The position numbers and the translations under genes were made by a program. The notes below the pieces were generated by a model that worked only from the letters and a program-made list of their open reading frames with translations, ran no database searches and had not been told where the DNA came from. 64,000 bases of DNA, taken from assembly GCF_002259705.1 (NCBI RefSeq), contig NZ_MWWT01000009.1, positions 1 through 64,000 on the forward strand, read 5' to 3'. The DNA comes from Alloscardovia macacae. Lineage in GTDB: Bacteria; Actinomycetota; Actinomycetes; Actinomycetales; Bifidobacteriaceae. Of this stretch, positions 1,472-14,402 are shown piece after piece. Every line of letters begins with the position of its first letter. Within the stretch, counting starts at the first letter, position 1.

Positions 1472-2467
1472 TTATGCGGATAATTGGCTCAAAACCTGAG
1501 CTATGTCCGCATCGATCCCCAGACCGCGGTCAGCTATCTCGCGCGGAACGTACGCATCCTCGAGCGAGACTGTCACATACGTGGCGAGCGGATTATCATA
1601 TGTAAGCCGCCAGAACGGATACGTAATAATGCTCGGCGTATTCTGCCCCACGCCGAGCTCGAGATAGAGCACATGCTGAGCCGGGGAGCCCTCCAAGCTC
1701 CGAGATTCGTCCGTTCTGCGCAAAAACTCGCCATAGCGTTCGGCGGCCGCATGCCAGCCCGCATCCTCCACGAAATCGCCATCGATACGCAGATTCATAC
1801 GCACCGCCCGACCCTGCTCATCTCGAGGAATGAGATGGGATGGTATACGCATGGACATGTCCTGTGCATCGTCCGGAGGGGTATAAATCCCCGCATCGTT
1901 TTTCACCCAGCCCTGAGCTTCGAGAGCAGCTGAGACCCACTCTTCGTTATCATATGTGCGGGACTGAGCGTTCTCAGCATCTGTCTTATCCTCGCCTCGC
2001 TGCTCGGGCACAGTCTCGAAAAGGCCATAATCTCCCTGCGTATAGAACAGGCGTTCCTTATCAAATCCCGCATTCTGGAACTGATGGTCCACATTCGTGG
2101 TCAGGACGAAATAATCCTTCCCGTCTACGAGATTTTTTAGCCGCGTGTACAGGCACGTCGCGGAATCTGACGGCATGTAGCGGTTCACATAAATATGGCG
2201 CGACCACCACGCCCAGAGCGTCTCCTCATCAGGAAAGGGATAAAAACCACCAGAATACATATCCTGTATACCATACTCTGCTGCAAAGTCTGCGAAGTAC
2301 TTCTCGAAGCGCTCGCCCGAGTATGTCAGACCCGCTGCAGTGGATAGGCCCGCCCCCGCGCCGATGAGGATGGCGTCAGCGTCGTCGATGGCCGTGCGGA
2401 GCGTCTGTATTTTTTCCTCGTATATGGTATCGATAGTGGCATCGCTTGCAGTAGCGTTCGTGCGCAC
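1472..2467 (-). CDS. SirTM-like (class M) sirtuin, macrodomain-linked
   Basis: An NAD-dependent SIR2-fold enzyme most like the SirTM group, which ADP-ribosylates a GcvH-like lipoyl carrier in staphylococci and streptococci. Visible motifs: GAGAGLSTAAGLTYSG (NAD binding), TTNVDHQFQ, and FYTQGDYGLF, in which Gln stands where ordinary sirtuins carry the catalytic His. Later come LELGVGQNTPSII and FVEDAGW. The usual zinc module is not intact: both places where SirTM proteins carry Cys pairs lack cysteine, and the only Cys in the protein is near ATCLY. An upstream GTG at 2527 is possible, but the GTG at 2467 has a well-placed AGGGAG and is preferred. It is the last gene of the Rrf2-macrodomain operon. 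No gcvH-like or lplA-like gene is present nearby. Confidence 0.88.
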   Translation of the reverse strand: MRTNATASDATIDTIYEEKIQTLRTAIDDADAILIGAGAGLSTAAGLTYSGERFEKYFADFAAEYGIQDMYSGGFYPFPDEETLWAWWSRHIYVNRYMPSDSATCLYTRLKNLVDGKDYFVLTTNVDHQFQNAGFDKERLFYTQGDYGLFETVPEQRGEDKTDAENAQSRTYDNEEWVSAALEAQGWVKNDAGIYTPPDDAQDMSMRIPSHLIPRDEQGRAVRMNLRIDGDFVEDAGWHAAAERYGEFLRRTDESRSLEGSPAQHVLYLELGVGQNTPSIITYPFWRLTYDNPLATYVTVSLEDAYVPREIADRGLGIDADIAQVLSQLSA

Positions 2468-2530
2468 TGTCGCACTCCCTTCTCTTTTTCTTCTCGATGC
2501 TTGCGCACGGCTTGCAGCTCCGTACACTTA

Positions 2531-3358
2531 CTACACGCCCAGAAGTTCTTCATAATACTGTCGGTCAGCGTCCGAGAAGACATTAAAAATAATGCGCTCT
2601 ACGGCGCCAGGATGGTTTTTCTTCCACTCTTCTACAGTGTCCACCGCTATGCGTGCGGCACGCTCAGCTGGGAAATGGAACACTCCCGTGGATATGCAGC
2701 AGAATGCCACGCTATCCAGTCCGCGCTGCGCGCAGAGGTCCAGAGTGGCGGAGTAACACTGCGCGAGGAGCTCCTTATCGCGCTCAGTCACTCGTTTGCC
2801 AGAGGTCACCGTCTCGTCACCCTGAATAATCGGTCCCACGATGTGGACCACATGCTTCGAGGGGAGATTATAGGCCGGTGTGAGCATGGGCACAACCGTC
2901 GGCTGTTCGTAGTGCGGACCATATGTCTCACGAAGCTCGTTCATCTGCCGCGCACACTCCTGCCGTAGCTGCACTCCCGCTGCCGTATGAATAGCATTAT
3001 CGATGCAGGCATGCAGTGGCGCGAAGCAGCCGAGCATGTGGGAATTCGCTGCGTTTACTATGGCATCGGCATCCAGTCGTGTGATATCTCCCTGCCAGAG
3101 ATAAAGTTCATCTCGCACTTCGGACAGGTCGTCCACATGGACGATGCCGTGTTCGCGCACTCGAGCCTGCAGGTAGATATCCTGCAGTTTTTGCGTGCGC
3201 TCGTCGAGAGGGGCAGGCCTGCGTATATTCATCAGCGCCTGGAGTAGCTCGCGCTTGCCCTCCTCATCATCCGGCGTCTCGAGATGCGCATAGTCGCGCG
3301 AGTCCACCTTAAACGCCTCGACGAGTTCGTCGAGAACGTCTGCTGACGATATGCTCAC
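2531..3358 (-). CDS. Zinc-type macrodomain protein-ADP-ribose hydrolase
   Basis: Predicted to remove ADP-ribose from proteins, reversing the modification made by the adjacent sirtuin. A helical N-terminal region (about residues 1-85) precedes the macrodomain. The domain opens with LYLWQGDITRLDADAIVNAA, followed by MLGCFAPLHACIDNAIH. The Cys-His-Cys set in GCFAPLHAC is the hallmark of the zinc-dependent macrodomain subgroup that travels with SirTM. CCISTGVFHFP is the second substrate loop. The stop is 3 nt before the first possible sirtuin start, and the start lies 1 nt after the Rrf2 stop codon, so the three genes are surely cotranscribed. Confidence 0.92.
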   Translation of the reverse strand: MSISSADVLDELVEAFKVDSRDYAHLETPDDEEGKRELLQALMNIRRPAPLDERTQKLQDIYLQARVREHGIVHVDDLSEVRDELYLWQGDITRLDADAIVNAANSHMLGCFAPLHACIDNAIHTAAGVQLRQECARQMNELRETYGPHYEQPTVVPMLTPAYNLPSKHVVHIVGPIIQGDETVTSGKRVTERDKELLAQCYSATLDLCAQRGLDSVAFCCISTGVFHFPAERAARIAVDTVEEWKKNHPGAVERIIFNVFSDADRQYYEELLGV

Positions 3359-3359
3359 G

Positions 3360-3800
3360 TTACGCTCTTTCCTCGAGTATCGTTTTCAATTCTTCGCTGA
3401 TATCTGCCAGTGTATATTCTCGCATTTGATTCTCCATGGCCGTCTGGATAGCATCCAGTTTTCCATCGAGAAGTGTGTGAATATTTCCACCTACCGGGCA
3501 TGCTGGGCTCGGATTCTCATGAAAGCGGAACAAGTCTCCGCTTTCCACTGCATCGACGGCTTTATACACATCGAAAAATGTGATGTCTTTCAGTGGCCTG
3601 TTCACTGTAATGCCGCCGGTTCCGCGCGCTACAGTCAAAAGGTCTGCCTTCTGGAGCTGCCCCAAAATCTTTCGGATAATCACGGCATTCGTCCCTATAC
3701 TTCCTGCGAGGAAATCACTGGTGACTTTTTGCGTCGCACTAAAGTGGTCCACGCACTCAAAGATGTGCAGTGCCACGGTAAATCTACTAGATATCTGCAT
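3360..3800 (-). CDS. Rrf2 family transcriptional regulator
   Basis: A 146-residue winged-helix regulator of the Rrf2 family. The first 80 residues form the HTH (MQISSRFTVALHI, then NAVIIRKILGQLQKADLL and the wing ARGTGGITVNRP). Rrf2 proteins often sense Fe-S clusters, thiol oxidation or reactive species. This one has only two cysteines, in HIFECVDHF and SPACPVGG, so a three-Cys Fe-S ligand set like IscR is absent and a thiol switch is more plausible. It is first of the three recognisable genes ahead of macrodomain and sirtuin and is the natural candidate regulator of the operon. Confidence 0.9.
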   Translation of the reverse strand: MQISSRFTVALHIFECVDHFSATQKVTSDFLAGSIGTNAVIIRKILGQLQKADLLTVARGTGGITVNRPLKDITFFDVYKAVDAVESGDLFRFHENPSPACPVGGNIHTLLDGKLDAIQTAMENQMREYTLADISEELKTILEERA

Positions 3801-3808
3801 GTGTCTCG

Positions 3809-3892
3809 CTATTCCTTACTCTTTTCTGCTAAAACTTTCCGTTCTCGTTCTTCCATGCGCTCTTCGGAGGTATAGTCTCCTGGATATTCCAT
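3809..3892 (-). CDS. Small 27-residue ORF in the Rrf2 operon
   Basis: A short ORF, MEYPGDYTSEERMEERERK..., highly charged (Glu/Arg/Lys) and probably helical. Its ATG overlaps the stop of the preceding 72-codon ORF as TAATG, and its stop lies 8 nt before the Rrf2 start. I recognise no family. It may be a leader or coupling peptide, or the broken end of a longer gene. It rests only on the coupling arrangement and codon composition. Confidence 0.4.
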   Translation of the reverse strand: MEYPGDYTSEERMEERERKVLAEKSKE

Positions 3893-4110
3893 TATCCCCA
3901 TCCTCGCTCAAAGACCCTCAGAAATGTCATTCGAGCCTTTTCTGCACCGCCAGAAAAATGCTTCATCGTTTTCACGAAAGCATCCACGTCCGTACCATCT
4001 GTAACATGATGATCGATGTACTCCTCACGGAGGAGACTGCGTGCCGCCCCACTCATCTCCCGACTCAAAAGTACGGAAAAGAGCCTGAGCTTTTCAGCAT
4101 TCGTCGTCAT
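3892..4110 (-). CDS. Small 72-residue protein, possibly truncated NTF2/SnoaL-like
   Basis: First ORF of the Rrf2-macrodomain-sirtuin transcript, with a strong GGGGAGGAAC ribosome binding site upstream. The pattern ARSLLREEYIDHHVTDGTDV followed by a helix resembles the first half of NTF2/SnoaL-like proteins, which are normally 120-150 residues. If so, it is truncated after MTFLRVFERGWG, and the overlapping 27-codon ORF could be the degraded remainder. Function unknown; the family call is weak. Confidence 0.45.
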   Translation of the reverse strand: MTTNAEKLRLFSVLLSREMSGAARSLLREEYIDHHVTDGTDVDAFVKTMKHFSGGAEKARMTFLRVFERGWG

Positions 4111-4259
4111 TATTCATGTTCCTCCCCCCCCTACACGCTTCGCAAGGAGCCGTATCATCCAGATGTAACTCTTTCTATTTCATCCAGCTCTATCCTACTT
4201 GATTCTCTTTGTAACCGCAAGTCTTACATCATGGCTATGCGCTAAGGGGAAAGGGGTAC

Positions 4260-4498
4260 TTTTGGGCGGATGTGACCTGGCACGCGCAAGCCATACATAG
4301 TTTTGGGCAGAAATGATCATGCATGAAGTCACTTGCGCCCAAAAAGCGCCCCTTTTCCCTCGCCCTATGATCACTTCCGCCCAAAATCTCTCCTACGCCT
4401 CACGCACTTCCCCTTTTGCGCAGAAATGACTACAGCACACCGCTCTGAAGACAGTTTTGCGCAGAAATGACCATCCGTACAGTCACATCCGCACAAAA
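4260..4498. repeat. Island of palindromic TTTTGGGC repeats (copy 1)
   Basis: At least seven copies of a unit close to TTTTGGGCGGAAATGAC occur in both orientations: forward at about 4260, 4301, 4414 and 4455, reverse at about 4329, 4368 and 4482. Opposed copies form hairpins, for example 4301-4344 and 4455-4498. The units differ by a few bases (GGGC, GCGC; GGAAATGA, GGATGTGA). No transposase or ORF of substance lies inside. The same core recurs at 14.25 kb and, with a different tail, at 36.2 kb. It resembles a REP/BIME-type family. Confidence 0.8.
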
Positions 4499-14250: not shown

Positions 14251-14402
14251 GTCTCGAGAAGTTTTGGGCGGAAATGACCACGAGAACCTCGTTCTGATAC
14301 GCTTTTGGGCGGGAATGACTGCACAGATAGTCATTCCCGCCCAAAACTTTGCTAGACAAAACTTTGCTAGACAAAACTTTGCTAGACAAAACTTTTCGAG
14401 AC
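14251..14402. repeat. Nested palindromic repeat island with 15-bp triplication (copy 2)
   Basis: The element is bounded by GTCTCGAGAAGTTTTG at the left and its near-perfect inverse at the right (15 of 16). Inside are TTTTGGGCGGAAATGAC (14262) and a TTTTGGGCGGGAATGAC/GTCATTCCCGCCCAAAA hairpin (about 14302-14346). Then come three exact tandem copies of CTTTGCTAGACAAAA at 14347, 14362 and 14377. The core matches the 4.3-kb island. No gene inside; the open frames across it are repeat artefacts. Confidence 0.85.

Follow-up and report, generated by a model that had tools for sequence, protein, structure and literature searches.

The three minus-strand genes between positions 1472 and 3800 of the 64-kb window (the whole stretch of Alloscardovia macacae DNA that was analyzed) are best read, with a probability of about two in three, as a horizontally acquired, electrophile-inducible module of reversible ADP-ribosylation whose writer is a zinc-free sirtuin of class M (SirTM). 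In such a module, an Rrf2 regulator would repress the operon from a TGTAA-N9-TTACA site upstream, and modification of its Cys101 by an electrophile, for example a quinone, would release it from the DNA and allow macrodomain and sirtuin to be made. The sirtuin would then use NAD+, through Asn125, Gln144, and Arg227, to ADP-ribosylate a target different from an operon-encoded lipoyl-GcvH-L, and the Zn-macrodomain would take the ADP-ribose mark off again. An insertion of about 18 residues is proposed to have taken over the structural role of the zinc ribbon in the sirtuin before the ligand cysteines were lost.

The gene order that an earlier note had read from the letters, namely Rrf2, Zn-macrodomain, and SirTM, was recovered in full. 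The Rrf2 regulator (3360..3800, minus strand), SifR/YwnA-like and with Cys101 in the segment ACPVGGNI, is followed by the gene for a Zn-macrodomain of the ADP-ribosyl hydrolase family (2531..3358, minus strand; 275 aa; motif GCFAPLHACIDNAIH; assigned by profile matches) and by the SirTM gene (1472..2467, minus strand; 331 aa). The tightness also claimed for this order holds for the rrf2 and macrodomain frames, which are separated by 1 bp, and would not extend to the sirtuin: a longer frame of 351 aa (start 2527) leaves 3 bp to the macrodomain, but the GTG at 2467, with AAGGGAG upstream, is the likelier start and brings the gap to 63 bp. The macrodomain scored 299.1 bits against the NCBIfam model PRK04143, 'protein-ADP-ribose hydrolase' (cut-off 272), and its best PDB match was 8rsi. 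It carries the zinc motif Cys-x4-His-x-Cys followed by Dx3H (LGCFAPLHACIDNAIH), of which the Cys, His, Cys, and Asp were kept in 78/78 sequences and the last His in 77/78.

Pfam held no match for the sirtuin at E<=1, and three NCBIfam deacylase models matched it weakly, far below their cut-offs, while its best PDB relative by sequence was SpySirTM (5a3a; E 4.7e-45). The same protein was the closest fold to the predicted structure (pLDDT 90.4; Z 31.4, rmsd 2.4 over 276 residues). The motifs TQGDYG (residue 143), TTNVD, GAGAGLS, and GVGQNTP (residue 272) were found, so the active-site Gln and the GAG motifs are present as previously described; QG stands in the place of the catalytic HG, and GVGQNTP conforms to the class motif GVGx[NT]TP. 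Asn125, Gln144, and Arg227 were invariant in 65 aligned rows and correspond, in the alignment to 5a3a, to Asn118, Gln137, and Arg192 of the Spy enzyme, whose catalytic roles are given in PMC4518038. Members of the class are protein ADP-ribosyltransferases that do not act as deacylases. Linkage to a Zn-type macrodomain, another SirTM trait, is present here as an adjacent gene. A second sirtuin-like match in the genome (C16:313394) was discarded as spurious since it sits in a LacI-type frame.

The claim that the zinc-ligand cysteines are gone was upheld by the alignments, in which the four ligand positions of the former zinc ribbon (residues 152-223, corresponding to 1799..2014 on the minus strand as derived from residue numbers) read T, A, D, and a gap. 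The one Cys left in the protein, residue 105 of 331 (SATCLYT), lies outside the zinc positions. The window sirtuin therefore does not have the zinc-coordinating small domain of the solved SirTM, a domain that stands outside the class definition in the source section. The loss was placed in a comparison of 107 SirTM sequences, composed of the window, 7 loci, 80 regions from the top of a ranked list of 225 matching genomes in the family to which the Lachnospiraceae MAG G005 belongs, and 19 regions from the window's own family. A twentieth region of the last set, the Sharpea contig L179, was left out, as was the fragment L012. The 80 regions omit G005 itself (already included as L005) and G242, which has an internal stop, and keep G356 together with its stop. 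In this survey, which was ranked by similarity to the window protein and is thus biased towards it, 61 sequences had four ligand cysteines, 40 had one, and 6, the window among them, had none; two or three ligands occurred in no sequence. Defining zinc-free as at most one ligand Cys, 46/107 belong to this type. The single Cys retained by the 40 relatives is absent from the window sirtuin. Since 45 other SirTM genes show the same loss, it is real and does not stem from a misread sequence, a source of error raised beforehand. The trait is common to a large group and not peculiar to the window protein. Two genomes each hold two distinct zinc-free SirTM/macrodomain pairs (L163 and L171 in G425; L164 and L165 in G569).

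All 46 zinc-free sirtuins carry an insertion that mostly measures about 18 residues; it was also present in 34 of the 61 zinc types and missing in the other 27. This distribution indicates that the insertion probably preceded the ligand loss, and the simplest order that the sequences suggest is probably insertion followed by loss of the cysteines. In the window sirtuin, the insertion spans about residues 186-203 (1859..1912, minus strand, from residue numbers), and the surrounding part of the model, residues 181-210, was predicted with block mean pLDDT values of 97, 93, and 92; an extra stretch at residues 156-166 reached 79 and 60. The role of the zinc ribbon is probably filled by this insertion. 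The trees fit more than one history of the trait: a single clade of the 46 zinc-free sirtuins was not rejected (p-AU 0.661), and a quick sirtuin tree built without the trait region required 5 changes of zinc state. The window sirtuin itself sits on a long branch, and its nearest rows by path in the trees are mostly zinc types. Its macrodomain falls in a set of 23 rows (SH-aLRT 98) that all partner zinc-free sirtuins; the macrodomain tree as a whole required 8 changes of the zinc label, with the partners of some zinc-free sirtuins in other branches.

The substrate of the sirtuin in the characterized operon is lipoylated GcvH-L (PMC4518038), and pairs without gcvH-L and lplA2 appear as independent or minimal operons in PMC4518038 and PMC11490716. 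As such lone pairs are already published, the missing partner genes alone are not new. Another substrate, as the earlier note had suggested, appears probable. The absence itself was confirmed, since contig 20, which holds the window, gave no GCV_H or LplA match and the genome-wide matches were located on contigs 15 and 16. The rest of the genome does encode a canonical-type GcvH and an LplA, which lie about 5-6 kb apart on contig 15 (L014), unlinked to the module. The target might still be GcvH, a chromosomal copy lipoylated by the unlinked LplA, with the parts of the extended operon scattered in the genome. The proximity of the two genes speaks in favor of this arrangement, as does GDC-P, for which no match exceeded the family cut-off and only a sub-cut-off match was obtained in each of the 5 genus genomes, S. 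pyogenes being likewise described as lacking a glycine cleavage system (PMC4518038). Nevertheless, we consider it unlikely. GcvH and LplA were present in 5/5 genomes of the genus and the sirtuin in 1/5, so GcvH is not a dedicated partner of the sirtuin; the GcvH of this genome can be aligned with the canonical protein of E. coli, C-terminal part included, whereas GcvH-L is devoid of the helix there; and MorMacro, the macrodomain of a lone pair, failed to demodify GcvH-L (PMC11490716).

A survey of 35 genomes that carry zinc-free sirtuins and belong to other genera pointed in the same direction; its GcvH part did not extend to the 8 such genomes in the window's family. Full-length GcvH was detected in three of them (G005, G013, and G211), and the 32 others gave either no match (18) or short matches only (14). 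Ten of these 14 short GCV_H matches exceeded the family cut-off, and all 14 frames bear a stretch such as EAMKM, which we take to be a biotin-carrier motif. LplA passed its cut-off in 5/35 genomes and in none of the other 30; genome incompleteness is an unlikely cause of these 32 and 30 absences. With GcvH in 3/35 and LplA in 5/35 zinc-free genomes, lipoyl-GcvH-L cannot be the general substrate, and the target is probably something other than an operon-encoded lipoyl-GcvH-L. A flavoprotein in which a PNPOx-like domain is fused to 4Fe-4S ferredoxin domains lies near SirTM in 32/107 loci (e.g., L006 5406-6002 and L011 5330-5992; domain make-up from a Pfam run on the L006 copy). It looked like a substrate or redox partner, but was rejected as the general substrate because the genome of the window has no homologue, only a ferredoxin-like match of 52 residues.

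The regulator scored 94.5 bits against the Rrf2 family in Pfam/NCBIfam (cut-off 30), with 1ylf and YwnA (1xd7) as its closest structures. Cys101 was kept in 24/24 Rrf2 sequences and aligns with the Cys that YwnA has in its CPVG segment, and Cys16 was kept in 19/24; its presence in the window protein as well makes a two-thiol mechanism possible. A palindrome was sought in the upstream regions without a preset motif and prior to any comparison with published ones. The resulting motif, ATGTAA-N9-TTACAT, matches the TGTAA-N9-TTACA operator described for SifR and HypR in PMC9218516. In the 64-kb window, the motif scan returned this pattern as an exact site only at 4210..4228 (palindromic, no strand assigned), a candidate operator that fits the Rrf2 switch suggested by the earlier note. 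Of the 24 loci with rrf2, 19 have an exact site close to this gene or its SnoaL gene, in the interval from 400 bp upstream of the called frame to 60 bp into it. The window, where the site lies about 100 bp before a SnoaL-like gene remnant that separates it from rrf2, was added by eye as the twentieth, and the four others (L048, L082, L105, and L116) had no exact operator nearby. Altogether, the 24 loci with rrf2 (321 kb) contained 41 sites, and the 82 loci that lack the gene (1039 kb) contained 14; one further locus, whose rrf2 match is short, was counted in neither group. The promoter scan returned no sigma-70-like site at the operator. As SifR senses quinones via its single conserved Cys (PMC9218516), an electrophile or quinone would be the likely inducer of the module.

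The genome of the window contains 5 exact sites, and the same pattern read backwards has 0. Apart from the site in the window, three stand ahead of genes: one SnoaL-like, one ywnB-like with a second Rrf2 behind it, and one resembling NADP-oxidoreductases. The fifth lies within a coding frame. As this second Rrf2 also has the motif upstream, either regulator may bind 4210-4228. The locus of this second Rrf2 (L208 4714-5880; C1:417213) carries its Cys in the segment QCVVGG, and the ywnB-like assignment of the gene ahead of it is our reading, by eye, of an NmrA-like start. The SnoaL-like gene (L207 5214-5901; C1:438213) stands behind an operator that differs from that of the window at 1 of 19 bases, and is 61-66% identical to 5 of the 7 copies at SirTM loci and 31% to that of L091, the L049 copy being a short fragment; ATG, GTG, and TTG are all missing at its expected start. 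Across the SirTM loci, an Rrf2 gene occurred within 6 kb of 18/46 zinc-free and 7/61 zinc types (Fisher p 0.0011, kinship ignored). A coupling of zinc loss to Rrf2 was dropped, as tree-aware pairing yielded 1 supported pair. An HxlR gene, mostly divergent, lay within 6 kb in 40/107 loci, with its Cys kept in 38/40, and was commoner near zinc types (31/61) than near zinc-free sirtuins (9/46). YodB and QsrR of the HxlR family sense quinones.

The module looks horizontally acquired. The trmH and permease matches that border the place of the module are separated by 66-98 bp in three of the four sister genomes and by other genes, about 2 kb in all, in the remaining one; relatives of all three module genes occur together in Lachnospiraceae. 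The GC content (53.7% in the module, 55.9% in the window) was set aside because it says little on transfer. The trmH-permease site is possibly an insertion hot spot. In the fourth sister genome (L194 4864-6561), one of the genes at this site contains a CARHDMCY stretch, which resembles phospholipase A2. The motif TGRYCATTTCTGCSCAAAA, counted in both orientations, occurs 7 times in the window when up to 3 mismatches are allowed, against 0.04 expected; the matches at 4301-4473 and 14262-14346 include four between module and permease and two at 14 kb, and one weak match lies inside the sirtuin gene.

Upstream of rrf2, a SnoaL-like gene remnant (3829..4110, minus strand) was recognized by comparison with the intact relative in L053, a member of the SnoaL_2/SnoaL family. 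Its N-terminal part occupies 3892-4110 and is followed, after an in-frame stop, by the final 20 residues at 3832-3891, which are 60% identical to L053; the middle is gone. No flavoprotein gene is found at the module in the window. L053 and L062 have the full order sno-rrf2-flavoprotein-macro-sirtuin, so the module of the window may be a reduced version of it, and the remnant together with the missing flavoprotein could mean partial decay of the module. Decay could extend to the sirtuin, the cysteine loss being then one step in a loss of function, and the disappearance of the Cys that 40 relatives keep would fit such a course. We regard it as quite improbable for a protein with a full-length frame, preserved catalytic motifs, and a confident model, whose ligand loss recurs in 45 other genes and whose adjacent macrodomain keeps its zinc motif.

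An inducible writer and eraser pair remains our preferred reading, and its parts can be set against described systems. With the extended operon of SpySirTM it shares the fold, QG for HG, GVGxNTP, the Asn/Gln/Arg set, and the adjacent Zn-macrodomain; it differs in the absent zinc ligands, the insertion, and the neighborhood, where Rrf2 and the SnoaL remnant stand instead of the gcvH-L and lplA2 that belong to that operon. Lone SirTM/Zn-Macro pairs such as that of MorMacro resemble it in lacking these two genes, and in 8rsi as the best structural match of the window macrodomain, whereas neither a zinc-free sirtuin nor an Rrf2 with a predicted operator is mentioned in the source sections. The regulator has the CPVG-segment Cys of YwnA and the operator of SifR and HypR, but resides in an ADP-ribosylation operon and possesses the second Cys (16). 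The SIR2_2 sirtuins FAM118 and ThsA also have no zinc site; they represent a different subfamily in which, according to PMC12700824, the module is missing altogether, whereas here relatives keep it and the loss can be traced. The zinc-free state of antiphage SIR2 proteins (PMC12700824) and the acquired look of the locus could suggest an NADase or defense sirtuin. This we hold to be highly improbable, as none of the three proteins matched a PADLOC family at E<=0.1, the closest sequence and fold are those of a SirTM, and the gene has an eraser, the Zn-macrodomain, and a regulator of thiol type beside it.

SirTM, Zn-Macro, lone pairs, and the link to oxidative stress are already known. The zinc-free SirTM branch, its occurrence without GcvH and LplA, and the SifR-type operator were not found in the literature searched (openly licensed, titles and starts of abstracts), which contained no paper on zinc-free SirTMs or Rrf2-SirTM loci. 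A wider and rather doubtful extension would see in these loci a lipoate-independent branch of ADP-ribosylation signaling: thiol switches of the Rrf2 or HxlR type would respond to quinones or other electrophiles by inducing zinc-free SirTMs, these would modify proteins that bear thiols or are damaged by electrophiles, and such proteins would be reset by the Zn-macrodomain, which is able to cleave Cys-ADP-ribose; if true, the loss of a thiolate zinc site could keep the writer working under electrophile stress. For the family, the zinc-free group, standing beside relatives with both insertion and zinc site, lets the zinc independence of a sirtuin be tested, and a large collection of carriers, most of whose checked genomes lack the only known substrate, combined with a concrete candidate operator and a likely class of inducer, offers a direct route to the substrate.
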